Assembly (NCBI RefSeq): GCF_002250115.1
Contig: NZ_CP019985.1
Location: 1,240,001-1,304,000, forward strand
Direction of reading: 5' to 3'
DNA length: 64,000 bases
Origin: Shouchella clausii
Lineage (GTDB): Bacteria; Bacillota; Bacilli; Bacillales; Bacillaceae_D
How positions within the stretch are numbered: the stretch's first letter is position 1; every line of letters starts with the position of its first letter. The notes beneath the pieces were generated by a model. The model was not told the origin of the DNA and did no database searches. It saw nothing but the letters and a program-made list of their open reading frames with translations. Made by a program: the position numbers and the translations under genes. Below are positions 45,497 to 62,354 of the stretch, piece after piece.

Positions 45497-46150
45497 ATGT
45501 CTACTTCGTCTAACGAACGGATTCTTGTTTGCGTCAATTACGGCCACCACGGCAGCAAACTCATTAAAAGAGGGGCCGCTCTTGCTTCTCAACTAAACGC
45601 GCCTTTATCGATTCTTGTGTTTGATTCTTTGCCGGAGGAGGAGTATAAACACGATAAAAAAATCGATATGTCCCTTTTTAAAGAACTTGCTGATGAATAC
45701 GGCGCTGATTTGAGTGTAGAGAAGTCTCATGCCTACAACATTACAAACGTCATTTCCAACTTTGCAAAAGAAAAACAAGCAACACAAATTGTCATCGGCC
45801 AAATTGCCGAAAATTTATGGACTACTTTACTTGGCGGTTCCATTATTGACACGTTGCTTGAAAAAGCGCCTTTCGCTGATCTTCATGTTGTCCCTAAAGA
45901 ACGGGCCGATGAAACGGATAATTGGAATTTTGAAAGGGGCGTATCCGCCTATTTGGTGGAACAAGCAGATGGCACTTATGAGCTGCGATTTGACGACAGC
46001 AAAGGCTTCAGCTATGAAGGCGTCTTCTTTAAAGAGCTGCAAACGAATTTTAATAGCGGCATTTTCTCCTTCACTAAGGACAGCCATATATTTGAAGTTC
46101 GTGTTGACGATGGCACAGTCCGCCGACTGGTCGATATCGATGAAACATAA
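45497..46150 (+). CDS. KdpD-like universal stress domain protein without kinase
   Basis: The 217-residue protein begins with a USP fold as found in the cytoplasmic part of KdpD (ERILVCVNYGHHGSKLIKRGAALASQLNAPLSILVFDSL, then ATQIVIGQIAENLWTTLLGGSIIDTLLEKAPFADLHVVPKE). A C-terminal domain of about 75 residues is of no recognised family (GTYELRFDDSKGFSYEGVFFKELQ). No histidine kinase follows. It may sense potassium, nucleotides or stress. The ATG follows GGAGGGG. Confidence 0.8.
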   Translation: MSTSSNERILVCVNYGHHGSKLIKRGAALASQLNAPLSILVFDSLPEEEYKHDKKIDMSLFKELADEYGADLSVEKSHAYNITNVISNFAKEKQATQIVIGQIAENLWTTLLGGSIIDTLLEKAPFADLHVVPKERADETDNWNFERGVSAYLVEQADGTYELRFDDSKGFSYEGVFFKELQTNFNSGIFSFTKDSHIFEVRVDDGTVRRLVDIDET

Positions 46151-46192
46151 TAGGACGAAACCAGTTATTTGCCAATCGCCCTCTTCTATCTA

Positions 46193-46237
46193 AAAAAGCG
46201 CCAAACGATGGGCATTTCCCCTTTGTCTGGCGCTTTT
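46193..46237. terminator. bidirectional terminator between the USP and ABC-F genes
   Basis: AAAAAGCGCCA and TGGCGCTTTT pair, with A and T runs on the two sides, between two convergent genes. Confidence 0.8.
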
Positions 46238-46248
46238 GCTTTGGCTGC

Positions 46249-47880
46249 TTATTGCTCGTGTTTTTTTCGTTTTGCCCAGGCGTATGAAAACGAGCCTTCA
46301 TAACGAGTGACAGCTCCATTTTCAAGCCAATAGGTGACAGGAAAAAGTTTGTTCAAAAAATAACGGTCATGTGATACTGCGATGATCGTGCCTGCAAAAT
46401 CAGCCAATGCCTCTTCAAGCACTTCTTTTGAGTCTATATCGAGATGGTTAGTCGGTTCATCCAACACGAGCACATTATGCTTTTCGAAAATCAACTGTGC
46501 TAGCCGCAGCCGCATTTTTTCGCCTCCACTTAAATCGGCGACACGCTTAAAAACGTCTTGCCCATAAAACAAAAACCGCGCTAACTGGCCTCGGGCTTCG
46601 CCATCTGCTAAAAGCGCACTGGCGCGGAATGCTTCGAGCACCGTCTGCTTTGGATCAAGTTCTGTGCCATGCTGGGACAAATAGCCTAATGAAACACTAG
46701 CCCCTATTTTGCATTGTCCTGTATCAGGCTCGATCTCCCCTAAAATCAGCTTTAATAGCGTCGACTTCCCCTCTCCATTAGCGCCAACGAGGGCGACTCG
46801 TTCTTGATGGCGCACAGCTAAGTCAACTTGACCAAGCACTTGCCGTTCAGCAAATGTTTTCGAAACGGCTTTTAATTCAACTACGTCTTCGCCACTGCGC
46901 CCTTGCTGCTCAAAAGACAGTTCTACTTTCTTCGTTTGCGGCGGCTTTTTTAGCTCTTCCATCCGCGCCAATGCTTTTTCCATGCTCTTAGCCTGGCGGT
47001 GCATCCCTGCATTAGGCGGATTAGCGCGGTTCGCCCATTCTTTCAGGCGCTTAATCGCTTCCCGCATTTTCTTCATCTTTTTCTGTTGATCCGCGTATTG
47101 CTGGAATTCTCTCATGAGGCGTTCTTCCCGCTCTATTAAATAGCCACTGTAATTGGCTGCATATTGATGCAGCACCCCGTTCTCCATTTCCCATATTTCC
47201 GTTACAGCCGCATCAAGGAAAGCACGGTCATGAGAAATAATGAGCACAGCCCCTGCATAATGGCGCACCCAGTCAGCAAGCCAATCAAACGCGTACAAAT
47301 CAAGATGGTTAGTTGGTTCATCTAGAATGAGTAGATCAGGCTTTTGCAACAATAAACAGGCTAGGCCGACTTTCGTCCGTTCGCCACCGCTAAGAGCCCC
47401 CCAACGTTTCTCAAGCAATCCCGTAATGCCAAGACCTGCGGCAATGCGGCGAATATTGGCCTCATATTCAAAGCCACCAACATCAGCAAACTGCTGCTGT
47501 AAACGGCCGTATTCCTCTAAGACACGTTCTAGCTTGGCTGGTTGCTGCTCGATTGCGAGCACTTCTTCCAATCGCGTCATATGCTCTTTCACTTTTTTTA
47601 TATCGCTAAATACCGTTTCTAGTATCGTGTAGACACAACTATCTGGCGAATAGGTAGGTGCTTGGGCTAACATGCCTTTCGCCAGTCCTTTTCGCCAGCC
47701 GACCTCGCCAGTCGCAGGGGGTTCTAGTCCTGCAAGGATGCGGGCCAGCGTTGTCTTCCCCTCGCCATTCCGCCCGACGAGGCCAATGCGGGCACCGCTT
47801 TTGATTTCCATTGACAGGTTCGCAAACACTTGTGTAGCGCCATATGATTGGCTGACATGATTGGCATAACAAAGAATCAC
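46249..47880 (-). CDS. ABC-F family ATPase (ribosome-associated, possible antibiotic resistance)
   Basis: The 543-residue soluble protein has two ABC domains: Walker A GRNGEGKT (36-43) and GANGEGKST, signatures LSGGERTK and LSGGEKMRL, and LDEPTNHLD in both. A basic inter-domain linker rich in K, R and M follows the first domain, which in ABC-F proteins reaches into the ribosomal E/P site. No membrane segments. The GTG at 47880 has AGGAGG 8 bp upstream. A leader peptide, an intrinsic terminator and an RBS-sequestering hairpin precede it, the arrangement typical of drug-inducible ABC-F resistance genes. The drug is not predictable. Confidence 0.88.
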   Translation of the reverse strand: MILCYANHVSQSYGATQVFANLSMEIKSGARIGLVGRNGEGKTTLARILAGLEPPATGEVGWRKGLAKGMLAQAPTYSPDSCVYTILETVFSDIKKVKEHMTRLEEVLAIEQQPAKLERVLEEYGRLQQQFADVGGFEYEANIRRIAAGLGITGLLEKRWGALSGGERTKVGLACLLLQKPDLLILDEPTNHLDLYAFDWLADWVRHYAGAVLIISHDRAFLDAAVTEIWEMENGVLHQYAANYSGYLIEREERLMREFQQYADQQKKMKKMREAIKRLKEWANRANPPNAGMHRQAKSMEKALARMEELKKPPQTKKVELSFEQQGRSGEDVVELKAVSKTFAERQVLGQVDLAVRHQERVALVGANGEGKSTLLKLILGEIEPDTGQCKIGASVSLGYLSQHGTELDPKQTVLEAFRASALLADGEARGQLARFLFYGQDVFKRVADLSGGEKMRLRLAQLIFEKHNVLVLDEPTNHLDIDSKEVLEEALADFAGTIIAVSHDRYFLNKLFPVTYWLENGAVTRYEGSFSYAWAKRKKHEQ

Positions 47881-47887
47881 GTTTCAT

Positions 47888-47987
47888 TCCTCCTATTGAT
47901 AGTAGGAAGAGACTTGTGTACACCAAAAAGACGGCAGAGAAATTCTCCGCCGCCTCAATCCGTATGCGAGTAGAAATGTCTCTTCCT
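47888..47987 (-). promoter_or_regulatory. attenuator and RBS-sequestering leader of the ABC-F gene
   Basis: On the minus strand there are three elements. A GGCGGCGGAGA/TCTCTGCCGTC stem (47930-47954) is followed by TTTTT, forming an intrinsic terminator. TCTTCCTA/TAGGAGGA (47903-47910 with 47888-47895) hides the ribosome-binding site. AGGAAGAGAC (47978-47987) pairs perfectly with GTCTCTTCCT (47904-47913) and competes with the RBS hairpin. Ribosome stalling in the upstream leader frame could choose between them. Confidence 0.7.
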
Positions 47988-47998
47988 AATGGTTTTTC

Positions 47999-48118
47999 CT
48001 ATGCCGTTGCGTAAAAAAGGACAGACTGGTCCAATTTTGCAACAACAGCGGAAAAAATAGCCTGACAAATCCACAAATAGGCGCGAAACTTTGCCTGGCT
48101 GCCATTAAAAAGATCCAT
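47999..48118 (-). CDS. 39-residue leader peptide upstream of the ABC-F gene
   Basis: An ATG with a near-ideal AAAGGAGGTGAG site opens a frame for MDLFNGSQAKFRAYLW, then ICQAIFSAVVAK and a C-terminal LDQSVLFYATA before a TAG. It ends 12 bp before the first pairing element of the attenuator. A short, hydrophobic, well-translated frame at this position fits a ribosome-stalling leader as known for vmlR- and lsa-like genes; no homologue is recognised. Confidence 0.65.
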   Translation of the reverse strand: MDLFNGSQAKFRAYLWICQAIFSAVVAKLDQSVLFYATA

Positions 48119-48148
48119 GTTCTACTCACCTCCTTTATCATTACTGCT

Positions 48149-48177
48149 AGCGTAATGGAAGAAGGCAAAAATGTAAA
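48149..48177 (-). promoter_or_regulatory. SigA-type promoter of the leader-ABC-F transcript
   Basis: On the minus strand TTTACA and TACGCT are separated by 17 bp, about 31 bp upstream of the leader start codon. Confidence 0.6.
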
Positions 48178-48243
48178 GCATTCTATTTCTAAAACGGGAG
48201 GTAGTTGCCTTTCTATCTCTTTAGGCAGCGCTTTCAAACAACT

Positions 48244-49248
48244 TTAAGGCGAAATAACCCCGACTCCGGCGTTCGCCCGCACTACATCCTTCACTTGGTT
48301 TACAGGCGTTGCTTGATAGCTGTATGGTGGATTATAAGTCGTTGTCGAGACAGTTGGCTGCTCGCCAGTCGAAGAAACATAGCGATTATTGACCAGATGC
48401 CAATACCCGATTTCCTTGCTGTCTCGGCTTACAATTGGATTGTTTGCCCTTTCAAAATAGTTTTCCTCGATTCGTACTTGAGCCCCCATCCGAGAATTGA
48501 TCCCTGTCTCTCTAATATCTGCGTAGTAATTGCTGAAAATATGGGCTTCGCCAAAACGAACAGAAGGCACACGAGAATTCAAGTTTTCAAAGTAATTATT
48601 GTGGAACGTGATTTTTCGTCCGTATGAATCGCTGTCAGACGAACCCATCAGCATCGACTTCCAGCTGTCGTGTACATAGTTCCATGAAAAAGTAATGTAA
48701 TCAGCATCCCGTTTCACATCAAACAATCCATCATAATAGTCCTTATGCACATCAAGGCTATTATAGAGTTCGTTATGGTCCACCCAAATGTTTTTGGACG
48801 GGCCTTCAATGCTGATTGCATCTTTATCGCCTGTATTCACATGATGGATTTTCAAATTGCGGATGATCACGTTATTGGCCCGCCATACTTTAATGCCAAT
48901 TCCGTTAAGCTCCCCATTTGTTCCTACTCCTAACAAAGACACATCATTGACATCTTTAATGTCAATCTTGCTCGCCGATGTGTTTGCAGGCGTGATCGTT
49001 CCGTCTATATAAATGGTTAAAGGCGTGTTCGCCTTTTTATTTTTTAGCGCGGCTATCAATTGGTCACCGGTAGAAACGGTTACAACATCTCCTCCAGCAC
49101 CCCCTGTAGTCCCTCCATTAAGAGTGGCAAACCCTTGCATTGAAAAATTAACATTGGCTGCTTCAGCCCCTTCTTGCCCATACGCTGGTACGGAAAAAGC
49201 ACCAAACGCCAGCAAAAACGCAACCATGAACGACCACAACTTTCTCAA
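48244..49248 (-). CDS. pel: secreted pectate lyase, polysaccharide lyase family 1
   Basis: The 334-residue protein has a signal peptide ([24 protein letters not shown], cleavage about residue 24) and a parallel beta-helix with PL1 hallmarks. [12 protein letters not shown] and [21 protein letters not shown] carry the calcium aspartates, and [20 protein letters not shown] the catalytic arginine. It cleaves polygalacturonate by beta-elimination. The TTG start at 49248 has AGGGGA 6 bp upstream. It is divergent from an HTH regulator. Alkaliphilic bacilli commonly secrete such enzymes. Confidence 0.94.
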
Positions 49249-49281
49249 ATCTCATCCCCTGCTTTCTTTTATTTTTTCTAC

Positions 49282-49299
49282 TCAACAACCGACTTCCAT
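49282..49299 (-). CDS. possible 5-codon minicistron before the pectate lyase gene
   Basis: On the minus strand ATGGAAGTCGGTTGTTGA (MEVGC) is preceded 5 bp upstream by a perfect AAAGGAGG, stronger than the site of the pel gene itself. It lies 33 bp before the pel start. It may be a leader that controls pel translation or message stability, or chance. Confidence 0.35.
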   Translation of the reverse strand: MEVGC

Positions 49300-49352
49300 A
49301 CTTGCCTCCTTTCATTTGTAAATCATGCTCAGTTTATTACACAGCTTGCTAT

Positions 49353-49371
49353 AACCATGATAATCATTCTC
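49353..49371. promoter_or_regulatory. candidate Fur box between pel and the HTH regulator gene
   Basis: The 12-bp core ATGATAATCATT is identical to the Fur box core, and the whole 19-mer matches at about 15 positions. It lies about 105 bp upstream of pel and 200 bp upstream of the regulator gene. Confidence 0.5.
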
Positions 49372-49571
49372 TCAGAACCCATTCAAAGCTGATTGTCCAC
49401 TGGCTTTTTTCGTTATTTTCTTACTCAGACAATCGAGTCGTTATCGGCTGTTTTAGAGATTTTTGTACTGGCAATACAGTTGCAATTTTGTTTCTCAATA
49501 GGTAGAATAGATGCTACTGTTAATTTAAAAAAATAAATCGACTTGCATATTTACAAAAATGAGGGGTCATC

Positions 49572-50039
49572 ATGCAAAATTATGAAATTATGGACATTAC
49601 GTTAAAACAACAAAAAATCATATCCGATCCTTTGCGTGGGCAAATTATCAGTTTGCTCGCAGAAAAACCGATGACTTCAAAGCAAACAGCCGTTGAGCTA
49701 GGAAAGAACCCTGGAACAATTTATTACCATATTAAGCAATTGTATGAACATGGCATTCTGGAACTCGACCATGTGGAAACAGTAAAAGGAATTGTCGAAA
49801 AGTATTATAAAGCGAAAACGACTTTGTTCAGGGGACCTGGGGGAATAGGGGAAGAACACCGTGTGAAAAATAGGACGCCTTTATACTTATCCGATACGTT
49901 AATGGATGAAATGCAGGAAGAGATGTACCAGCTCTTTAAAAAATACGGCAAAAAAGCACGTGCCGATAAAACCGCGCAAATCCCGTGCATGGTTGAATTT
50001 TCTATCACCGAGATAAAAGAAGAAGACAAAGGTGAGTGA
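49572..50039 (+). CDS. ArsR-like winged-helix transcriptional regulator
   Basis: The 155-residue protein has an N-terminal helix-turn-helix (SDPLRGQIISLLAEKPMTSKQTAVELGKNPGTIYYHIKQLYEHGILELDH) of the HTH_20/ArsR type and a C-terminal helical region, ending in an acidic tail. GAGGGG precedes the ATG. No metal-binding CxC motif is present, so it is not a classical metal sensor. No partner gene lies downstream; the divergent pel gene is the only obvious candidate target. Confidence 0.8.
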   Translation: MQNYEIMDITLKQQKIISDPLRGQIISLLAEKPMTSKQTAVELGKNPGTIYYHIKQLYEHGILELDHVETVKGIVEKYYKAKTTLFRGPGGIGEEHRVKNRTPLYLSDTLMDEMQEEMYQLFKKYGKKARADKTAQIPCMVEFSITEIKEEDKGE

Positions 50040-50050
50040 CGGCACTCACA

Positions 50051-50089
50051 AAAGAACCAGTCGGCCGGCAACTCGGTCAACTGGTTCTT
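50051..50089. terminator. bidirectional terminator between the HTH gene and metS
   Basis: AAAGAACCAGT and ACTGGTTCTTCTTT pair across a 17-base loop. It serves convergent genes on both sides. Confidence 0.75.
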
Positions 50090-50110
50090 CTTTGTATGAT
50101 TAGGCAAATA

Positions 50111-52360
<2,250 letters not shown>

Positions 52361-52369
52361 CTTATCCAA

Positions 52370-52399
52370 AATATAGCCAATCATACATCACTTTGTCAA
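52370..52399 (-). promoter_or_regulatory. SigA promoter of the metS T-box transcript
   Basis: On the minus strand TTGACA (52394-52399) and TATATT (52370-52375) are separated by 18 bp. The -35 overlaps the herA stop codon region. Confidence 0.7.
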
Positions 52400-54228
52400 G
52401 CCTGGTCATACAACGTCGCAAATGGTGTTTTCTCTTTTTTAAGCCTTCCTTCCCTGCATAACCGTTCAAGTTCGTCTTTCCACTCAGAGACATCCCATGC
52501 TTTGGACGCTTGTTTGTTTAATGCATCCAGCTTTTGCATCACATGCATTTCCGCCATCGGCAAAAAGTCCGCTAATGCAGCGATAACTTCTTCATCGTCT
52601 GCTGCATTCATTTGCTCAAGCTCATCAAATGGATTCATCGTATGGGGACTCGTTGAGTGGGCTAGCCTTATCCGAACCGCCATTGTCCGGCCGATGATCG
52701 CCGATGAAACAAACACATCGCCTGACCGCAAATAGGGAAGACGCTTGCCTTCTTCCGCTGTTAAGTCGGTTTCTTCCTTAATCGTTTGAATGTCTGTTCC
52801 CCGCACTGTACGAAAAACAAATTTTGAATTGAGCTGTGCCGTAATCGTTTCATCGAGCAACGTTGGTCGTTGCGTTGCGAAGATTAGAAACGTCCCATAC
52901 TTCCGTCCTTCTTGGGCAATTTCCTTTAACACTGACTTGGCTGGCGCATCAAAGCCTTTCGGGGCAAAATTGTGCGCTTCATCGGTCACAATGACAAAAG
53001 GCGGAAAAAATTGGGCTTGTTGCTGCTGGAGCTTCGCATCTTTATAAGAGCGTCTTTTTGAATAAAGCGTACCAATGACATAGCTGGAGAACACTTGCAG
53101 CAACCAAACAGCCCCTTGGACGACAACGAGCTTGCCACTATGGATGCCGTGCTCAATGGCACGGATATTTTGTTGGAAAAGCCCTGCTTGGTTGAGCCGG
53201 TGCAAGCGCCATTGGATCCCTTTTACAGATGACGGCGGCAAACTGCCAAACTGGTCTAACAACTTTTTAAAGGTGCCGTATCTGGCTATTTCATCCCGGG
53301 ACATGCCGCCGTCATGGAGCATGCCGTCTATTTTCTGTTTGCCCATATCGAGTGCTTCTATTAAATTAGCAACGCGGTCGGAAAACGATTGGTAACTGTC
53401 TTTCTTTTTATGGAGTGTTTGCACAACATTGACCATCGACTCTGTCAACGATCCAGCAGCTCCGAGAAGCCTTTCGATGTCCCTTGTCGACAAGGCGGAG
53501 AAATCGACACCGACATCGCGGCCGATTTGTACGACTTCATAGCGGGAGTCGTAATCAACCTGACCTTTATGAGCTTCGGTTTTGCCTGAAAAATTCATTT
53601 CAAAATGGGGATCAAACACGAGCGCTGGAATTTTTAGCTTCATTAATTCCTCAAGCATCACCCGCAAACCGAATGATTTCCCTGACCCCGAGCCACCAAA
53701 TACGCCAATGTGGGGATATTGCTGCATCGCGCGAATGTCAAAAATAAACGGGACACCCTGTTGTGCCGTTGTCTTACCTTGTTCGTGCATAAGCATGAGC
53801 CCTTGTAAATGCTCAGGAATCGTTTCGGCGATAAAGTCAGTCGACTTCACTTCCCCGAGAACCATCCCTTTCTCTGGCCCTGTCGTCAACAGCAAATGCT
53901 CGATTTCACTGAACTCAGGATGGCGCACTGCTGCCCCTGTTTGGATTGGCTTTTGGGCCTCTTCAAACAAGCGCACTTTAGCTAGGTGGATATCGTCTTG
54001 GCCAATATCGTACCCAATCGCTTCGAGTGTTTCCAGTACGTCGCGGTCGACTAACCCTTTGTCCATTCCCATTGGAATATAGCGATTGTAGGAAAATGTT
54101 TCGACGACTTCCCCCTTTGGCTTAAACAGTTCGTCGTCTTCAATGACTAGCATTTCATTCATGCGGAACTTATGGGTTTTTGAAGCAACATGGACTTCAT
54201 GCTGCGTCGTGACACCAACCACTTGCAT
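52396..54228 (-). CDS. herA: HerA-family hexameric DNA-pumping ATPase
   Basis: The 610-residue protein has an N-terminal HAS-barrel-like domain and a FtsK/HerA ATPase core: Walker A GGSGSGKS (178-185), Walker B IVTDEAHNF (413-421) and KYGTFLIFATQRP (443-455). HerA pumps DNA into the NurA nuclease for end resection. It lies 15 bp downstream of nurA in one operon. It has no FtsK membrane segments or gamma domain, and no conjugation genes are near, so FtsK or VirB4 is unlikely. Confidence 0.9.
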   Translation of the reverse strand: MQVVGVTTQHEVHVASKTHKFRMNEMLVIEDDELFKPKGEVVETFSYNRYIPMGMDKGLVDRDVLETLEAIGYDIGQDDIHLAKVRLFEEAQKPIQTGAAVRHPEFSEIEHLLLTTGPEKGMVLGEVKSTDFIAETIPEHLQGLMLMHEQGKTTAQQGVPFIFDIRAMQQYPHIGVFGGSGSGKSFGLRVMLEELMKLKIPALVFDPHFEMNFSGKTEAHKGQVDYDSRYEVVQIGRDVGVDFSALSTRDIERLLGAAGSLTESMVNVVQTLHKKKDSYQSFSDRVANLIEALDMGKQKIDGMLHDGGMSRDEIARYGTFKKLLDQFGSLPPSSVKGIQWRLHRLNQAGLFQQNIRAIEHGIHSGKLVVVQGAVWLLQVFSSYVIGTLYSKRRSYKDAKLQQQQAQFFPPFVIVTDEAHNFAPKGFDAPAKSVLKEIAQEGRKYGTFLIFATQRPTLLDETITAQLNSKFVFRTVRGTDIQTIKEETDLTAEEGKRLPYLRSGDVFVSSAIIGRTMAVRIRLAHSTSPHTMNPFDELEQMNAADDEEVIAALADFLPMAEMHVMQKLDALNKQASKAWDVSEWKDELERLCREGRLKKEKTPFATLYDQA

Positions 54229-54243
54229 CGTTGTTTCCTCCTT

Positions 54244-55188
54244 TTAATAAGGCCTGCTTTGCCGCATTTTTGTAAAAAACTGCTTACGAACATCGGGATC
54301 TAAATATTGTTCAACCAACCCTTCGACAAGCTGGTCCGTTATGCGGATTTCTTTGTCAATGTAATCAAGCCAAAGAGGAATGCCCCGGCCTTCTTTTGGT
54401 GTAAGCGTACAAAGCAAATCGCCGACAAACGCCATATGTGGCGCTTGTTCTTCAAGCATATCAAATCCGGTGATCGCCGGCGTTGCCCCAAGCCTCATCC
54501 AAACGGACGTTAAGCCTGCTTTATGTTGGATATCTTCAAGGTAAACCATTTCATTTTGGTTTAACACGCCAAACAGCAAGTCTCTGTCATAAGAATACGG
54601 GTTCTTCGCAAATGAGGCAAAGGCCGGCAACTGAACTAAATTTTCCGTTGTGATTTCTTCTGATACGCCAACAAGCAACGTATCGTTTTTTAACGCAAGC
54701 GCCCGCAATGCTTCCCATTCCTCTGGGGCGTCGATCCGATAATGGTAGAGCGCTCCGTCCATGAGCATGACGCGTATATCTTCTGCTTCAAGCAAGCGAG
54801 TAGCCGCTTCCAGCTCCAACTTGGCAAGTAAATACGAGCGGCGGTTGCCTGAAGACTCATCTTGTTCCTCCAACAGTGGCACATACAAATCAGAAGCCCA
54901 TTGTTCCTTTCCATCTGTTGTTTTCGCTAGCGCTTGAAAAAAATAAAGTACATGTGGTGGCTCGCCATTTGTTTGGTTGACCGAGCCGTCAGCGCCGCCA
55001 ATTTTCCGACCTTCTAAAAGATCAACGAGGTGGCTTGCCGAAATTGTCTCCATTTGTCGAATAAGCGTTGCCGACTTCCTCAAATTTTGTCGAATCAAAT
55101 CTTTTTGACTATGACTATTTGAATACTGCTTTTTTAAAAGGTTGTTAGATTGCTTTAATTTGGAAATTATTTCTTCGTTTAAATCCAT
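54244..55188 (-). CDS. nurA: NurA-domain nuclease
   Basis: The 314-residue protein matches the NurA fold. GGADGSVNQ near residue 64-72 and MLMDGALYHYRI near 141-152 hold aspartates of the RNase H-like active site, KLELEAATRLL near 123 supplies further acids, and LDYIDKEIRITDQLVEGLV closes the domain. NurA is a 5'-3' nuclease that works inside a HerA ring. AAAGGAGG precedes the ATG. The gene is divergent from abrB. Confidence 0.87.
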   Translation of the reverse strand: MDLNEEIISKLKQSNNLLKKQYSNSHSQKDLIRQNLRKSATLIRQMETISASHLVDLLEGRKIGGADGSVNQTNGEPPHVLYFFQALAKTTDGKEQWASDLYVPLLEEQDESSGNRRSYLLAKLELEAATRLLEAEDIRVMLMDGALYHYRIDAPEEWEALRALALKNDTLLVGVSEEITTENLVQLPAFASFAKNPYSYDRDLLFGVLNQNEMVYLEDIQHKAGLTSVWMRLGATPAITGFDMLEEQAPHMAFVGDLLCTLTPKEGRGIPLWLDYIDKEIRITDQLVEGLVEQYLDPDVRKQFFTKMRQSRPY

Positions 55189-55314
55189 TTTTCCTTTCCT
55201 CCTTTCTAAGACACTACCTCTGTTAAACCATTGCTATTACAGGATTATTCTTTCCAATGCACTACCGGGGCGCACAAGTTTTCACAAAATATGCGATTTT
55301 TTATATAAATTTGT

Positions 55315-55343
55315 TTGACTTGTTTTGGAAATATTGTTATTCT
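55315..55343 (+). promoter_or_regulatory. SigA promoter of abrB
   Basis: TTGACT (55315-55320) and TATTCT (55338-55343) are separated by 17 bp. The start of transcription should fall near 55350, leaving a leader of about 90 nt. AbrB is autorepressed in B. subtilis. Confidence 0.65.
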
Positions 55344-55361
55344 TAGATTACTATAGAATTA

Positions 55362-55368
55362 TGTCGAA
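55362..55368 (+). promoter_or_regulatory. Spo0A box downstream of the abrB promoter
   Basis: TGTCGAA is a perfect 0A box about 12 bp past the predicted transcription start, the same place where phosphorylated Spo0A represses abrB in B. subtilis. A weaker inverted TGTCATA follows at about 55372. Confidence 0.7.
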
Positions 55369-55442
55369 TTATGACACATACAGAGTCCGTTTATTTTTCG
55401 TAAATAAGCGCACACCACCATATTTGAGGAGGAAATCTAAGA

Positions 55443-55727
55443 ATGAAATCTACAGGAATTGTACGCAAAGTGGATGAACTAGGTCGTGTTGTCATTCCCA
55501 TCGAACTGAGACGTACATTGGAAATCGCCGAAAAAGACGCGTTGGAAATTTATGTCGACAATGACCGCATCATTCTCAAGAAGTATAAAGCTAACATGAC
55601 TTGCCAAGTAACTGGCGAAGTGTCTGATGACAACCTATCACTCGCAAACGGCAAGATCATTCTTAGTCCTCAAGGTGCCGAAGCAATCATTGGCCAACTG
55701 CAAGAATATGTCGCTAAAAAATCATAA
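55443..55727 (+). CDS. abrB: transition state regulator AbrB
   Basis: The 94-residue protein has the AbrB swapped-hairpin DNA-binding domain (MKSTGIVRKVDELGRVVIPIELRRTLEIAEKDALEIYVDNDRIILKKY) with the conserved arginines, and a C-terminal oligomerisation region (KIILSPQGAEAIIGQLQEYV). AbrB represses many stationary-phase genes during exponential growth. GAGGAGG precedes the ATG. Spo0A control is supported by the perfect 0A box downstream of the promoter. Confidence 0.98.
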   Translation: MKSTGIVRKVDELGRVVIPIELRRTLEIAEKDALEIYVDNDRIILKKYKANMTCQVTGEVSDDNLSLANGKIILSPQGAEAIIGQLQEYVAKKS

Positions 55728-55740
55728 GCATGACGCTTTT

Positions 55741-55767
55741 AAAACCTGCCTCTTATGTGCAGGTTTT
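55741..55767. terminator. terminator between abrB and rsmI
   Basis: AAAACCTGC and GCAGGTTTT pair around CTCTTATGT and are followed by TTG and a second T-run. It lies 14 bp past the abrB stop and just beyond the convergent rsmI stop. Confidence 0.85.
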
Positions 55768-55773
55768 TTGTTT

Positions 55774-56640
55774 TTAGTGCTGATGGTACATTTGGTAAAT
55801 TTGCCGTTTCGGAACCCCACGATCAACAGCTACTTGCTTAATCGCGTCTTTTTGGCTTAAGCCAATGGCGATATAATGATCCACATGCGCTGTTTCACTT
55901 AACGATGCCCACCATTGTTCTTGCTCTTCATTTGCTTGTTGGCTAGCCCCTTCTACAACTAAACAAAACTCCCCTTTGATCGTCCCTGTTTCTGTCCAAG
56001 CGACCGCTTCACTTAGGAGACCACGCTGATACTCTTCAAATTTCTTAGTCAGTTCCCGGCCAATGGCGATTTCCCTGTCGCCAAACGCTTCGTACATCGC
56101 TGCTAACGTCTGGCTAAGGCGGTGTGGCGCTTCGTAAAACAACATGGTTTCGTTTGCTGTGGCCAAACGGGCTAACGCTTCCTTCCGATCTTTTTTCCCT
56201 CGCGGCAAGAAACCGTGGAAAGCAAATTGCTTAGCCGGCAAGCCTGAAGCGACCAAAGCAGTCAGCGCTGCATTTGCCCCAGGCAAAGCGACAACTGGAA
56301 TGCCTGCATCAATGCAAAGCTTGGCAAGCGCTTCACCAGGGTCGGAAATTCCGGGCATGCCTGCATCACTGACAAGAGCAATTGTTTTTCCCTTCTCCAT
56401 TTCCGCTAAAAGGTCAGCGCCGGCTTGCTTTTGATTATGCTCATGATAGCTGACTAGCGGCGTATGAATGTCAAAGTGAGCCGTAAGTTTCCGAGTTTGC
56501 CTTGTATCTTCAGCGGCAATTAAATCGGCTTCTTTCAATATCCGAATTCCGCGGAATGTCATGTCCTCCAAGTTGCCAATTGGCGTCGGCACTAAATAAA
56601 GGCACCCAGCAGCGTGCTGGAAACTTTTTTGCTCTTTCAT
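55774..56640 (-). CDS. rsmI: 16S rRNA (cytidine1402-2'-O)-methyltransferase
   Basis: RsmI methylates C1402 of 16S rRNA. The 288-residue protein shows YLVPTPIGNLEDMTFRGIRILKEADLIAAEDTRQTRKL, VSYHEHNQ, ALVSDAGMPGISDPGEAL and FHGFLPRGKKDRKEAL, all typical of the family. It overlaps the GIY-YIG gene by 4 bp, forming the conserved yabB-yazA-yabC string. Confidence 0.97.
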   Translation of the reverse strand: MKEQKSFQHAAGCLYLVPTPIGNLEDMTFRGIRILKEADLIAAEDTRQTRKLTAHFDIHTPLVSYHEHNQKQAGADLLAEMEKGKTIALVSDAGMPGISDPGEALAKLCIDAGIPVVALPGANAALTALVASGLPAKQFAFHGFLPRGKKDRKEALARLATANETMLFYEAPHRLSQTLAAMYEAFGDREIAIGRELTKKFEEYQRGLLSEAVAWTETGTIKGEFCLVVEGASQQANEEQEQWWASLSETAHVDHYIAIGLSQKDAIKQVAVDRGVPKRQIYQMYHQH

Positions 56641-56900
56641 TGTCCTTCCTCTTTTCTTCGCTTGGCTATATAAAGCTGTTTTTCCTTTTTGGACAGTTGT
56701 TTAAAGGCATATTCGTAGCGCATCGCCTCTTCTTTTGTAGCAAATTCTTCAAAGAATACGAGCGTAAACGGCCCTCTTCCCCGGGTATACTTTGCCCCTT
56801 TGCCTGCTTCATGCATCGCTAATCGTTTTTGCAAATGGTTGGTATACCCGGTGTACCAACTGCCATCCTTGCATTCAAGCACGTACATCACATGTGTCAT
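56637..56900 (-). CDS. yazA: GIY-YIG nuclease domain protein, YazA-like
   Basis: The 87-residue protein is one GIY-YIG domain of the UPF0213 type: MYVLECKDGSWYTGYTNHLQKRLAMHEAGKGAKYTRGRGPF with the YVL and YTG motifs, the conserved arginine and a late glutamate (EAMRYEYAFK). The function of stand-alone UPF0213 proteins is unknown. It overlaps both neighbours by 4 bp. Confidence 0.92.
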   Translation of the reverse strand: MTHVMYVLECKDGSWYTGYTNHLQKRLAMHEAGKGAKYTRGRGPFTLVFFEEFATKEEAMRYEYAFKQLSKKEKQLYIAKRRKEEGQ

Positions 56901-57628
56901 CTTCCAAAATACTCCCTTTGAAAGGCTGGCGTATACTCGTCTTCATTATAAACAATTAACGGCGGTTCACAAACAAGCCCTGGCTTGCCACCCTTTGTCC
57001 CTTCTAAAAGGACGATGTTGGCGTTTGCTTCCCCCCGTGGATGGCAAAAACGCAGTCGTTTTGGCTCAATGTTGCATTTACGCATCTCGTCCATCATGTC
57101 CGCAAGGCGTTCTGGCCGATGGACGAGCGCTAGCTTGCCGCCATATTTCAATGCATAACTGCCTGCTTGGACAACGTCCGCCAACGTGCAGGCAAGCTCA
57201 TGGCGAGCAAGGGAGAGGGCACGCTGTTCTTTTACTTGCTTGTTTCCTCCAAGTTGAAAATAAGGAGGATTGCATGTAACCGTATCATACGAGCTATGGG
57301 CAAGTTTGTTTTTCGTGTCTTTTAAATCAAAACATAGCGAAGTCACCTGTTTTTCTAGTTGATTCACGCGTATCGTCCGCTCTGCCATATCATGCAAGGG
57401 CGCTTGGACTTCAACCAAATCGATCAATGCTTTCGTGCGAGCTGACAGAACGAGACCGACAATGCCATTTCCGCTGCATAAATCAAGAATACGCCCCTTT
57501 TGGATGGGCACATAAGCAAAGCGGCCAAGCAACACCGCATCAATCGAATAAGCGAATGTCTGGTCACTTTGGATAATCGATAAGTTGCTACCGGCCACTT
57601 TGTCGAGCCGTTCTCCTTGTAAAAGCAT
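56897..57628 (-). CDS. TrmN6-like tRNA1(Val) adenine-N6 methyltransferase (YabB)
   Basis: The 243-residue SAM methyltransferase has the DLCSGNGIVGLVLSARTK SAM-binding motif and the NPPYF catalytic motif (VTCNPPYFQLGGNK). It matches the family of TrmN6 and YabB, which methylates A37 of tRNA-Val in E. coli; the Bacillus target is inferred. It overlaps yazA by 4 bp. Confidence 0.9.
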   Translation of the reverse strand: MLLQGERLDKVAGSNLSIIQSDQTFAYSIDAVLLGRFAYVPIQKGRILDLCSGNGIVGLVLSARTKALIDLVEVQAPLHDMAERTIRVNQLEKQVTSLCFDLKDTKNKLAHSSYDTVTCNPPYFQLGGNKQVKEQRALSLARHELACTLADVVQAGSYALKYGGKLALVHRPERLADMMDEMRKCNIEPKRLRFCHPRGEANANIVLLEGTKGGKPGLVCEPPLIVYNEDEYTPAFQREYFGR

Positions 57629-57646
57629 GGCCCCTCCTATTTCAAC

Positions 57647-57691
57647 GAAAAAGTCGGCTACCCGAATAGATCGTCCAAACGGAGCCGACTT
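57647..57691 (-). terminator. terminator after yabA
   Basis: On the minus strand AAGTCGGCT and AGCCGACTT pair across a 25-base loop and are followed by TTTTCG. It lies 32 bp past the yabA stop and before the trmN-like gene. Confidence 0.75.
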
Positions 57692-57722
57692 CTTTATTTA
57701 ACATCTTGATGGTTGCACGTGC

Positions 57723-58082
57723 TTATTTTTGGTGCAAAAAGGACAGGCAAAACAAGCAGTCATCCCCTTCAGGCCTTATACTGCCGTAATGGGTGTTGCA
57801 AATATGGAATCCTTCTTGGTACAAACGGGCCAAGTTTTCATGGCCTTCCCCAACCATTTTTTTGCGTGAGCTTTTTCCTGAGGGAGTGACCGTGTTTTTC
57901 GTCCCAGCTTCTGGTTCAAGCCGTTTACGGAGATTTTCATTTTCGACATGCAAGTAATGGTTTTCTTCAATTAAGTATGCCAGTTGCTCTTTTAGCCCTC
58001 TTAGTTCGTCATGAAGATCCCCTATCCGCTCTTCAAGGCTCGAGACTTGAGTGAATATGGCTTTTTTGTCCACATGGTTCAC
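57723..58082 (-). CDS. yabA: initiation-control protein YabA
   Basis: YabA binds DnaA and DnaN and restrains replication initiation. The 119-residue protein has an N-terminal coiled coil (about 1-60) for tetramerisation and a C-terminal zinc site: [21 protein letters not shown]. The middle linker is S/G/K-rich. It is 4 bp downstream of ricT, as in B. subtilis. Confidence 0.95.
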
Positions 58083-58086
58083 CTCG

Positions 58087-58914
58087 TTATTCAGTTGCTT
58101 CCGAAGCGACTGTCTCCTTTCTCATCAGTTCTTCAAAAGCATACTCCAGCGTTTGCTGTTCTTCTGCCAGTTGGACTTGAACGATTCGGTCAAGCAAATT
58201 TAAGCCAACGACTTTGCCTTTGCCATCAGGCGTAACAATCGGCTTGCCAATGTCAGGCATTTCTTTCTTAGCTTCCTCATATGTGTCATTTTCATACTTT
58301 AAACAACACATTAACCGGCCGCAAAGACCGGAAATTTTCGCTGGGTTTAACGATAAATTTTGGTCTTTTGCCATTTTAATCGAGACTGGCTCAAAGTCGC
58401 CTAAAAACGTTGAACAGCAAAGCATCCGACCACAAGGGCCAATGCCGCCAAGCATTTTTGCTTCGTCGCGGACACCGATCTGCCGAAGCTCAATCCTTGT
58501 CCGAAAAATCGCTGCTAAGTCTTTAACGAGCTCACGAAAATCGATTCGCCCATCAGCAGTAAAATAAAAGAGCACTTTGTTGCGGTCAAACGTGTATTCC
58601 ACATCAACAAGCTTCATGTCTAGTTGATGCTCTACAATTTTCTCGTGGCATGTTGCAAATGCGTCTTCAGCGGCCCGTTTGTTTTCTCTCACTGTTTCTT
58701 CGTCTTTGCTAGTCGCCACACGCATCACTGGCTTTAATGGCAAGACGATGTCCTCTTCACTAACAAACTTTGGAGGAACAACAATTTTCCCGTACTCAAC
58801 GCCCCGGGACGTTTCAACAATAACAGCTTCTGCGCCTGTAAGCTGAAACGGGCCTGGAGAGAAGTAGTAAATTTTGCCCGCTTTTTTAAAACGGACACCT
58901 ATGACCTCGTGCAA
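58087..58914 (-). CDS. ricT: RicT (YaaT), PSP1-domain protein of the Y-complex
   Basis: RicT forms a complex with RicA and RicF that carries iron-sulfur clusters and promotes RNA processing by RNase Y and Spo0A phosphorelay activity. The 275-residue protein has the PSP1 C-terminal domain and the conserved cysteines: [20 protein letters not shown] and [19 protein letters not shown]. It is 3 bp downstream of holB. Confidence 0.96.
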
Positions 58915-58917
58915 AAC

Positions 58918-59916
58918 TTAGCCCTCCTGTATGGTGAAAAGCAGCCGTTCCATCACTAGTTGGATGGAAACGTTGGCGCTAAGATGCCTTTTCGCTTCAA
59001 GCACATGGCTCATCGCTGCGCGAATGGTGTGCTGTGATGTAGAAAGCGCCAGCTCATCAAATTTGCTTTTGTTGTCAGCATAGACAAGCTTATCCTGCTT
59101 TCCAGCCTGTATATATAAAAGGTCTCTTAACCAAAGTAACATCATTTCAAGCCCCATTTCTTGTTGCAACCGCTCCTTCATAAGCGGAATCCACTTATCA
59201 GCAAGTGTGATTGCAGCAAGGTCTGGCCTTGTAAAAAGCTCATGCATCAATTGTAACACTACGGTTCTTGCTTGAAAAGACCAGTCTCCCTCGGCTAGTG
59301 CCTTCGCGTAAGCTTTGTTTCCCGTTAAAGCAGCTAAAAACAATGCCTGATTTTCTTCGATTCCCTCGGCAACAAGTTTGCTTGCTATTTGCGTTTGCGA
59401 AGGCGGCAAGAACCGCATTTGTTGGGCACGGGAGCGAATCGTCGGCAAGATGCTTGCACCGTTTTGCGTCAAAAGGATCGCCAATGTTTGGCCTTGTGGC
59501 TCTTCCAGAAACTTCAATAAACTATTTGCAGCGCTGGCGGTCATTTTGTCCACGTGGGAGATAATATACACTTTTGCAGCAGACTCCATGCCCCTGTACG
59601 TAAATTCTTTTTGTAAGTATTCGATCTGTTCTTTTTTAATCGATTGTCCGTCCGGTCCGACTTGGTGGACGTCAGGGTGGTTGCCATGTTCAATCCGCAA
59701 ACAGTCACTGCATGCATGGCACGGCTCTGCCCCGTTGTGTTCTTTGCAGAAAAAACGTTTCGCCATCAGCAAAGCCACTTCATGTTTGCCGCTTCCCGCT
59801 TCCCCTTCAAACAAGTAGGCATGGGCCAAGCGGTTTTTTTCAATGCTCGCAACAAGCATAGGCACAACCTGCGGCTGTGCCTCTTGCCAGTCTTTCCATG
59901 TATCCACGTGTCTCAC
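58918..59916 (-). CDS. holB: DNA polymerase III delta' subunit
   Basis: HolB is a clamp-loader subunit. The 332-residue protein has the Walker A-like FEGEAGSGKHEVA, zinc cysteines CKEHNGAEPCHACSDC, the arginine finger region PTIRSRAQQMRF and a C-terminal helical domain. B. subtilis has yaaR between darA and holB; here darA ends only 6 bp away, so yaaR is missing. Confidence 0.95.
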   Translation of the reverse strand: MRHVDTWKDWQEAQPQVVPMLVASIEKNRLAHAYLFEGEAGSGKHEVALLMAKRFFCKEHNGAEPCHACSDCLRIEHGNHPDVHQVGPDGQSIKKEQIEYLQKEFTYRGMESAAKVYIISHVDKMTASAANSLLKFLEEPQGQTLAILLTQNGASILPTIRSRAQQMRFLPPSQTQIASKLVAEGIEENQALFLAALTGNKAYAKALAEGDWSFQARTVVLQLMHELFTRPDLAAITLADKWIPLMKERLQQEMGLEMMLLWLRDLLYIQAGKQDKLVYADNKSKFDELALSTSQHTIRAAMSHVLEAKRHLSANVSIQLVMERLLFTIQEG

Positions 59917-59922
59917 CTGCTC

Positions 59923-60252
<330 letters not shown>

Positions 60253-60273
60253 CTATCGCACCCCACTTTATGT

Positions 60274-60915
60274 TTAGTCTTTAGTAGACAAAAGCACTCG
60301 GTTGATTTCTTCCATTGTATCATGAAACACTTCTGCAAAAGAACGGTTGGCATCAATCGCCTTTATTCGCTCCGGTTCCGCCTTTAGCAGTTTTTTGTAA
60401 CCTTCCTGGACACGCTTATGGAAGGCAAGCGTCTCTTGGTCCAAGCGATTCCAACTGCGGACAGCGTCCTGTTGCACCCTTTCCAGCCCGATTTCCGGCT
60501 CTACGTCAAAATACAACGTTAAATCCGGCATATAAGTCTCGATCGCAAAGCCATTAATGGCTCTGACTTCTTCCATTCCTATTCCTCTTGCATGGCCTTG
60601 GTAAACAAGGCTTGAATCTATATAACGATCACATAAGACAAGGGCTCCCTCCGCAAGTGCGGGAACAATTTTTTTGATCAAATGCTCTCTTCTCGCGGCA
60701 GCGTAAAGCAATGCTTCCGTGCGGTTATCCATTTCAACGCCTTGCGTATGCAACAATAAGTCGCGAATTTGTTCAGCCAGCTCGACGCCGCCTGGTTCTC
60801 TCGTGCGGATCACCTCGTAGCCTTGAGTGGCAAGTTGCTCTTGCACAAGATTAATGATCGTCGTTTTACCGGCGCCTTCTCCGCCTTCAACTGTAATAAA
60901 CAGCCCTTTTTTCAT
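60274..60915 (-). CDS. tmk: thymidylate kinase
   Basis: Tmk phosphorylates dTMP to dTDP. The 213-residue protein has the P-loop FITVEGGEGAGKTTI, the DR motif CDRYIDSSLVYQG, TREPGGVELAEQIRDLLL and a LID segment. It is 2 bp from yaaO in the same transcript. Confidence 0.97.
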   Translation of the reverse strand: MKKGLFITVEGGEGAGKTTIINLVQEQLATQGYEVIRTREPGGVELAEQIRDLLLHTQGVEMDNRTEALLYAAARREHLIKKIVPALAEGALVLCDRYIDSSLVYQGHARGIGMEEVRAINGFAIETYMPDLTLYFDVEPEIGLERVQQDAVRSWNRLDQETLAFHKRVQEGYKKLLKAEPERIKAIDANRSFAEVFHDTMEEINRVLLSTKD

Positions 60916-60917
60916 GT

Positions 60918-62354
60918 CTAATCCTCCGGCATTTGTACACGTAATCCATGTTCTGGGTCCAGCCCTTGAAAACGGACGCTTGCTTCAAGCAGTCGCTCAA
61001 TCTGCTCGGCATGGGCAGGAGTCACCTTTTCTCCTCGATATAATAAAGGAACTCCAGGAGGGTACGGGACAAGTGGCTCAGCTGCAACTCTGCCAACCGC
61101 TTCACTCAGCGGAACCGTTTCTGAGCTAAAGTCGGGCCGTTTCATGTCTATCAATTCGGAAATGGCCGGCCCTGCTCCTGCCTGGAACAGACCCGTTTTT
61201 CTATGCTTTTCTGGCTGCCAACAACGTGTCGAAAGCCGCGAATTGAACAGGCTAGCATCGAAGTCCTGCCCAACCCCTAGTACGAGAAGAATAGCGTTTG
61301 GATCAGCCATCTCCGCCCAAATCCCTGCCTTTGCCAACTCTTGAAGCAGCCATGTACCAGAACGTGAATCATTTGTTTTTATTGTAACCTTTAACGGGTC
61401 ATTTTGGTAGCACTCGCCTGCATTTTCGACAACTTCCAGCATAGGATGGCTGCCTATCGTCTCTTGCAAACGGTGGCTGGTGCGACATGCTTTAGCAAAT
61501 GCTGCTTCCCCTTCGCTTTCGATATAGGCACGTGCCCCATCTAATGAAGCAAGAAGCAAGTACGACGGACTGCTTGACTGCACCAACGTTAACGCCCGTT
61601 TGACTGGCTCCCTAATAGCCGCAGTCGTCTCTTTTGCAAAATGCAGCCAAGCCCCCATTGTTAAAGCAGGCAGCATTTTATGGGCCGATTGCACGACAAC
61701 ATCCGCTCCAATGTCAAGTGCTTGTTTAGGACAGCGCCCTTCACGTTCCCCTAGTTTAAAATGCGCTCCATGTGCTTCATCGACAAGCACGAGCAAACCT
61801 GCCTCCTTTGCCTGCGCAAAAATAGCTGCTTGATTGCGAACCGTGCCCCAATAATCGGGATAAGTAGCAATGAGTGCTTTTGCATCAGGGTATCGCCTTA
61901 GCGCTGCTTCAAGAACATCAGCAGTCAACCCTAGCGGCCGCCCTGTCTTTTTATCATATTCAGGCGCAAGAAAAACGGCTTTTGCTCTTGCCAACTCGAG
62001 CGCATGCAAAACCGACTTGTGGCAGTTCCGTTGAACAAAGACAACGTCCCCTTCTTTGCATAATCCGTAAATCATCGCTAAATTTCCACTAGTAGAACCG
62101 CCAACCAAGTAAGTTGTTTCGCCTGCACCGTAAAAGGCCGCGCAAAGGGCTTGCGATTCCGCAATTGGACCAGTAGGGTCATGAAGGTCATCCAACCCTT
62201 CTAGCTCCGTAACATCATAGGCAAGCACATGTTGAAAAGACGCCAAGCTTTCAGGCCAGACGGCGCCATTTTTATGGCCTGGCACATGAAAAGACAAAGG
62301 CTGTTTGTCGCTATGCCGTTGCAATGCAGCGATAATCGGTGTTCGTGCTTTCAT
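60918..62354 (-). CDS. yaaO: Orn/Lys/Arg decarboxylase family PLP enzyme (YaaO)
   Basis: The 478-residue fold-type I enzyme has VDEAHGAHF and the PLP lysine in QSAHKMLPALTMGAWLH, preceded by LVGGSTSGNLAM, and a C-terminal decarboxylase domain. It belongs to the group of SpeA and YaaO; the substrate is not certain, as B. subtilis YaaO has no defined reaction. It precedes tmk, the order in Bacillus. Confidence 0.9.
   Translation of the reverse strand: MKARTPIIAALQRHSDKQPLSFHVPGHKNGAVWPESLASFQHVLAYDVTELEGLDDLHDPTGPIAESQALCAAFYGAGETTYLVGGSTSGNLAMIYGLCKEGDVVFVQRNCHKSVLHALELARAKAVFLAPEYDKKTGRPLGLTADVLEAALRRYPDAKALIATYPDYWGTVRNQAAIFAQAKEAGLLVLVDEAHGAHFKLGEREGRCPKQALDIGADVVVQSAHKMLPALTMGAWLHFAKETTAAIREPVKRALTLVQSSSPSYLLLASLDGARAYIESEGEAAFAKACRTSHRLQETIGSHPMLEVVENAGECYQNDPLKVTIKTNDSRSGTWLLQELAKAGIWAEMADPNAILLVLGVGQDFDASLFNSRLSTRCWQPEKHRKTGLFQAGAGPAISELIDMKRPDFSSETVPLSEAVGRVAAEPLVPYPPGVPLLYRGEKVTPAHAEQIERLLEASVRFQGLDPEHGLRVQMPED

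Follow-up and report, generated by a model that had tools for sequence, protein, structure and literature searches.

A conserved HerA–NurA gene pair between metS and abrB in Shouchella clausii and its probable role in chromosomal DNA-end processing

The DNA analysed here is a stretch of 64,000 bp from Shouchella clausii (RefSeq contig NZ_CP019985.1, positions 1,240,001–1,304,000), hereafter the window, which is part of a single 4,517,459-bp contig. The region spanning 52396–55188 contains exactly two minus-strand genes and nothing more: nurA (54244–55188), encoding an RNase H-like NurA-family nuclease of 314 amino acids (aa), and herA (52396–54228), encoding a 610-aa HerA-type DNA translocase ATPase. 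Both open reading frames (ORFs) are uninterrupted and each is preceded by a purine-rich ribosome-binding site, that of herA being the AAGGAGG motif in the 15-bp spacer between the genes (54229–54243, minus strand). This spacer suggests that nurA and herA form a single transcript and may be translationally coupled. An earlier note made from the sequence of this region had called the genes a HerA–NurA resection pair inserted between metS and abrB, and had taken them for an acquired or selectively retained repair or defence module; its coordinates, strand and 15-bp gap were confirmed. From the results below we consider it probable that this is a true HerA–NurA pair, vertically inherited in Bacillota at an ancestral abrB/rsmI–metS site and acting as a chromosomal DNA-end processing machine.

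The identity of NurA was examined by family, fold and residue conservation. The protein matched Pfam PF09376 over profile positions 2–254 of 254 (E = 3.9e-41; 141.7 bits against a cut-off of 21), and among the control genomes the NurA profile also matched Synechococcus and Thermotoga. Its structure model (predicted local distance difference test score, pLDDT, 92.6) gave chain G of the Thermococcus kodakarensis HerA–NurA complex (9X1M), which is taken to be NurA, at Foldseek ranks 1 and 2 (4.4e-9 and 1.1e-7). Later matches were endonuclease V, TdpAB (sixth; 8wfd_G) and Argonaute entries, which would suit an RNase H-like fold as predicted for NurA. The earlier note had pointed out acidic motifs; in aligned Bacillota NurAs, E125, D144, E177, D201, D243 and D275 were kept in 52 of 52 sequences and D67 in 51, the remaining row having a gap. 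In published work, available to us in part, the NurA catalytic residue is D58 in Sulfolobus solfataricus (PMC4641729) and D49 in T. kodakarensis (PMC12977600), and the essential aspartate of Deinococcus radiodurans NurA is D53 (PMC9960219). D67 would be their equivalent, judging by its place on strand 62–72 rather than by residue-level superposition.

HerA matched the Pfam family DUF87 (“Helicase HerA, central domain”) with an E value of 1.9e-14. The protein contains the EGRKYG and QRP segments that are conserved in HerA, and in an alignment of 42 sequences its Walker A (GGSGSGKS, residues 178–185) and Walker B (DEAH, 416–419) motifs as well as R442, K443, Q453 and R454 did not vary in any. 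The best sequence relative in the PDB was S. solfataricus HerA (4D2I; 9.3e-15 with the single sequence and 9.6e-21 with a 42-sequence profile), which outranked both defence HerAs and FtsK. In the structure model (pLDDT 88.6), a strand-rich N-terminal region, a RecA-like core and a C-terminal extension were seen. The best folds were T. kodakarensis and S. solfataricus HerA (5.1e-28 and 3.7e-27) at less than 20% identity, with near full-length matches to HerA chains and several strands in the modelled N-terminal region, where a HAS-barrel would be expected of a HerA. The scores fell below the NCBIfam equivalog cut-offs for archaeal and defence HerAs (65.8 against 800, 59 against 970, 51.2 against 850 and 42.2 against 800 bits); the protein belongs to the HerA superfamily, outside those narrow equivalogs. 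It is 99% identical to HerA of Shouchella rhizosphaerae, S. tritolerans and S. clausii AKU0647.

The families, the best sequence and fold neighbours and the conserved residues together support the HerA–NurA identity put forward in the earlier note, and the structure prediction it had proposed for both proteins gave the HerA–NurA complex and HerA as best folds. Kinship of the second gene with mobilisation ATPases along with a missing NurA active site, which the note held to be incompatible with such a pair, was not what we found: the best neighbours are HerAs and the acidic residues are in place. The archaeal complexes are among the closest known systems, 9X1M being the best fold match of both proteins and 4D2I the best HerA sequence in the PDB. 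The window pair differs from them in its low identity (<20%), in the genes nearby, among which no mre11–rad50 was recognised by eye, and in the C-terminal extension of HerA. This extension, residues ~533–610 (the last 78; window 52396–52632, minus strand), is predicted to consist of helices followed by two strands and, on this predicted secondary structure, may be winged-helix-like. When its sequence was searched, nothing better than chance was returned from Pfam (best E 0.026) or the PDB (0.14). Across relatives, the pattern of these 78 residues is conserved more than their sequence. The D. radiodurans NurA–HerA (PDB 7F6D, 7WRW and 7WRX; PMC9960219, available in part) is likewise a bacterial pair with a HerA-family ATPase and offers D53 as the proposed counterpart of D67. 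It is remote in sequence from the window pair, with a HerA fold match at 14–16% identity and no NurA sequence match.

The flanks named in the earlier note were verified by position and family match. On the nurA side lies abrB (55443–55727, plus strand), and the 254-bp divergent region between the two starts (55189–55442) presumably carries the promoters of both genes; as seven promoter-like matches in the scanned region, against a mean of 5.7 in shuffles, are no clear excess, the nurA promoter stays a presumed one. On the herA side lies metS (50111–52078, minus strand) with its own T-box leader (52129–52347, minus strand; Rfam RF00230). The default Rfam scan missed this leader, which scores 78.8 bits against a gathering score of 93. 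A promoter-like site (52399–52370) at the end of herA stands ahead of the leader, and from these two features metS is probably transcribed apart from nurA–herA. A LexA/DinR-like box near nurA was considered and rejected: the window has 16 matches, below the chance mean of 25, and none at the pair. No ORF of 46,000–62,000 was recognised by eye as mre11 or rad50, the family scan of neighbours reaching as far as metS and abrB. The GC content of herA and nurA (0.477 and 0.444) is near that of their neighbours and of the window (0.457). In seven records (G001, G004, G009, G207, G408, G409 and G415) the pair lies 47–66 kb from base 1 of the main contig, in line with a place near the origin provided that these records begin at dnaA.

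The distribution of the pair was followed in 13 genomes of the genus, 41 of the family and a sample of 397 of the order. PF09376 matched in 13/13, 41/41 and 24/397 genomes, respectively, 16 of the last belonging to the family. HerA adjoins NurA in all 41 family genomes when coordinates are compared by eye, herA of G405 being in two frames. When 41 loci from the 49 NurA-positive genomes were examined, the order and orientation abrB–nurA–herA were kept in 39, the exceptions being G038 and G214. The NurA-like matches of these two (35.2 and 21.5 bits) are located elsewhere and were excluded, leaving 22 pair-carrying order genomes; the G038 protein also fails to align with the Bacillota NurA profile. 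The complete run metS–herA–nurA–abrB–rsmI was present in 18 of 20 larger stretches. As a separate observation, the nurA frame is broken and herA intact in two JCM-strain drafts (G008:C37 and G419:C14; loci L060 and L061, also L089 and L154). Since holB in L060 and both tmk and yabB in L061 are split as well, sequencing error is possible.

On a wider scale, two short patterns run against GTDB genomes brought up 81 relatives, the best 80 of which are the named loci. They come from Shouchella, Alkalicoccobacillus, Halalkalibacter, Alkalihalophilus, Halalkalibacterium, Alkalihalobacterium and Salsuginibacillus, from many Thermoactinomycetaceae (Laceyella, Shimazuella and others), Halanaerobiales (Natroniella and others) and Tumebacillus, and from metagenome-assembled genomes of Clostridia or Symbiobacteriaceae. 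NCBI taxonomy puts Thermoactinomycetaceae in the class Bacilli and Natroniella in the class Clostridia. In these best 80 loci nurA always precedes herA (80/80), the herA of L164 having no complete ORF and the nurA frame being broken in L089 and L154. All three of abrB, rsmI and metS were present in 66 of the 80 (36/36 Bacillaceae-type and 30/44 others), part of them in eight and none in six. Among these six, L163 and L164 are only 5–6 kb long, L157 and L162 break off near nurA, and the two Tumebacillus loci (L159 and L160) have full flanks with the pair located elsewhere. The metS gene lies within 1.5 kb in 57 named loci and 1.7–5.8 kb further on in 11.

In 20 of 20 order genomes without the pair at this site, abrB stands beside metS at a distance of 347–1100 bp, and nothing in between matches a gene of the window; one of them is G038, with its weak NurA-like match elsewhere. 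Viewed from B. subtilis, the pair thus looks inserted between these two genes, and one reading, close to that of the earlier note, is that a module for repair or defence was gained there recently. We regard such an insertion as very improbable, and it is already contradicted by the same setting in other Bacillota groups, one of them of another class, and by the presence of the pair in all 41 family genomes. Furthermore, HerA and NurA protein distances track those of metS and rsmI (r = 0.90, 0.89, 0.77 and 0.85, the largest value in 999 shuffles being 0.45), in a comparison of distances rather than tree shapes among 30 chosen taxa. Together with the ordinary GC content and the absence of NurA matches from plasmid and phage records described below, this speaks against acquisition. 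The dN/dS ratios (nonsynonymous to synonymous substitution rates) against two near relatives were 0.017–0.023 for herA and 0.061–0.077 for nurA, within the range of the neighbours; against three further relatives they were saturated for most genes. The pair is under purifying selection, and the other option in the note, selective retention, fits. Most simply, the locus is old in Bacillota, was kept vertically at abrB/rsmI–metS and was lost on the B. subtilis side. Retention with repeated loss fits best, and vertical descent would extend across the whole phylum.

A plasmid or phage origin of the pair was considered as well. Searches with window NurA came back empty from both the plasmid collection (72,556 records, E 1e-5) and the phage collection (50,697 records, E 0.1), and HerA likewise had no phage match. 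Six Bacilli megaplasmid records of 0.36–0.72 Mb (Paenibacillus, Aneurinibacillus, Brevibacillus and Jeotgalibacillus) carry a full-length HerA of 35.5–38.5% identity. With NurA unmatched and these HerA matches distant, such an origin was rejected. Three of the plasmid stretches were read (NC_014628.2, NZ_CP116888.1 and CP009417.1; L186–L188). In L186 and L188, and not in L187, a 215–216-aa protein that weakly matches AAA_15 is encoded upstream of HerA, and genes for AAA and type II/type IV secretion system (T2SS/T4SS)-type ATPases lie downstream. The megaplasmid relatives, and the AAA and T2SS/type IV pilus/T4SS-type ATPase genes near HerA in two of the three stretches, are what could be said for HerA being an ATPase for the mobilisation or conjugation of plasmids whose partner is unrelated. 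The plasmid collection without any NurA match, the HerA kinship of the window gene and its position after NurA in 80/80 named loci already contradict this for the chromosomal form, and we consider it extremely improbable.

A function in defence against phages was weighed at more length. HerA-type ATPases are common to HerA–SIR2, HerA–DUF4297 and TdpAB, systems of patchy distribution with other nucleases or partner genes, and the pair might similarly be a chromosomally fixed anti-phage nuclease in which HerA pumps invading DNA into NurA. The resemblance of HerA to defence HerAs (PADLOC HerA, 9.6e-23; PDB 8xau, 9c1m and 8wiv) and the NurA-like fold of TdpAB chain 8wfd_G, sixth among the matches of the NurA model, point that way, and antiviral action is suggested by the authors of the T. 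kodakarensis study in the part available (PMC12977600). NurA had no PADLOC family match, PADLOC being run on NurA and HerA only, and neither SIR2 nor DUF4297 nor any other cognate effector of defence stands next to the pair, the adjacent genes being metS and abrB. Unlike patchy mobile defence systems, the pair occupies one site throughout the 41 family genomes, its distances resemble those of the housekeeping genes beside it, and NurA is unmatched in plasmids and phages. Phage defence is possible, though unlikely and less probable than DNA-end processing, and the “defence module” of the earlier note finds little room in this conserved distribution and site.

In Bacillus-like bacteria the textbook enzyme of end resection is AddAB. 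The relation of the pair to it was analysed using TIGR02785 for canonical AddA and TIGR02773 for canonical AddB, with AddA scanned in the order sample at E up to 1e-150. Canonical AddA and AddB both passed the cut-offs in only 5 of 41 family genomes, all Shouchella (G001, G002, G004, G009 and G012); the three of these in the order sample (G002, G004 and G009) had no divergent AddA-like match at 1e-150. The genome of the window has instead, behind genes resembling pst–phoU, a 900-aa AddB-like protein with a PD-(D/E)XK domain and an 863-aa AddA-like helicase with no nuclease domain match (L064:7061–9652; C1 ~3079060–3081651). Divergent AddA-like proteins of part of Shouchella are 857–863 aa long and have no C-terminal PD-(D/E)XK match (L064 and L073; L069 by length), and those read from other family genera are 1099–1180 aa long, with PD-(D/E)XK in both examples scanned. 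The idea that AddAB is simply absent was accordingly rejected for most of the family. Only S. lonarensis (G003; a 30-contig draft called 99% complete) gave nothing AddA-like beyond weak helicase matches, and it appears to resemble D. radiodurans, described as having neither AddAB nor RecBCD (PMC9960219, in the part available). The window pair differs from that of D. radiodurans in mostly coexisting with AddAB or an AddAB-like enzyme. AddAB, a UvrD-type helicase with a PD-(D/E)XK nuclease, is unrelated to HerA–NurA, and the canonical and divergent forms are presumed to share with it the task of processing double-strand ends. In the available text of Rocha et al. (2005), Bacillus halodurans is said to be without AddAB, “having RecBCD instead”, in a statement that comes with no mention of HerA–NurA (PMC1193525).

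In the order sample, canonical AddA was found in 367 of 397 genomes; among the 30 without it, 20 were identified from the rows listed and 10 by elimination. It was missing from 19 of the 22 genomes with the abrB–nurA–herA locus and from 11 of the 375 others (Fisher p 6e-22, in a test that ignores relatedness and leaves an exchange unproven). Instead of canonical AddA, most pair-carrying order genomes have divergent AddA-like proteins. In other groups, none of 24 named pair-carrying genomes passed the AddA cut-off, which may not fit these groups, and 18 had weaker AddA-like matches; they represent 24 of the 44 non-Bacillaceae-type loci and stand without NurA-negative controls. As to the co-occurrence with addAB, which the earlier note had wished to see examined, the pair tends to go with a missing or altered AddA, and the exchange is not strict, because five Shouchella keep both systems and the seven sampled genomes of family f28 have neither canonical AddA nor NurA. 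Weaker AddA-like proteins of 1061–1074 aa occur in f5 g69, G119, G037 and G193; those of f5 g69 and G119, 1066–1074 aa long, also speak against a strict exchange. It is quite possible, if short of probable, that the association is a by-product of ancestry, a shared history with no functional exchange; the few independent lineages and the same Shouchella and f28 genomes agree with this, and the switches seen within families and a genus (in family f5, genus g69 against g11; in family f35, G119 against G223 within genus g74) argue against it.

Chromosomal DNA-end processing is the most likely role of the pair. The HerA ring would pump duplex DNA, and a NurA dimer sitting on the ring would cut the strand or strands fed in, giving either a recombinogenic end or the degradation of broken DNA. 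NurA–HerA of D. radiodurans resects 5′ ends in vitro, according to the accessible part of the report (PMC9960219); by analogy, HerA would thread the duplex end and the NurA dimer would cut the 5′ strand during translocation. The complex, the ring, the polarity of cutting and the repair role are what this model would predict for the Bacillota proteins, in which the pair may work beside AddAB or partly in its place. The uniform, apparently non-mobile distribution would favour housekeeping over defence.

Several points weigh against this reading of the pair. Neither the single NurA sequence (E up to 10) nor a profile built from 52 of them (E up to 0.1) matches any PDB sequence, and the folds closest to NurA agree with it only moderately (template modelling scores 0.38–0.52) at less than 20% identity. 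Five of 13 Shouchella genomes retain the pair beside canonical AddAB, and all seven sampled f28 genomes have a divergent AddA-like protein and neither canonical AddA nor NurA. Deletion of nurA–herA in D. radiodurans raised resistance to ultraviolet light and mitomycin ~10-fold (PMC9960219), and the T. kodakarensis complex cuts both strands, its authors doubting end resection and proposing an antiviral role (PMC12977600), as far as the available parts of both sources go. The in vivo role of bacterial HerA–NurA is disputed. Among the papers listed in our literature search, with most subscription papers outside it, we saw none on HerA–NurA in Bacillaceae, nor any biochemistry or genetics of the pair in Bacillota. 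A bolder and unlikely extension of chromosomal end processing is that HerA–NurA was no import from archaea but the ancestral Bacillota machine for double-strand ends, which stayed for very long at the abrB/rsmI–metS site and disappeared several times as canonical AddAB replaced it, and that the putative winged helix of HerA, placed like FtsK gamma, could read a polar DNA sequence as AddAB reads Chi.

The pair itself is well supported and of a known kind. In the accessible published accounts, HerA–NurA is held to be archaeal, with transfer into Deinococcus-Thermus; what is new here is mainly the place and age of HerA–NurA in Bacillota and its relation to AddAB. Cultivable Bacillaceae with a conserved chromosomal HerA–NurA would make its disputed in vivo role testable in mesophiles, some of which have genetic tools, and the species with canonical AddAB, with altered AddAB or with none detected may serve as natural sets for this purpose.

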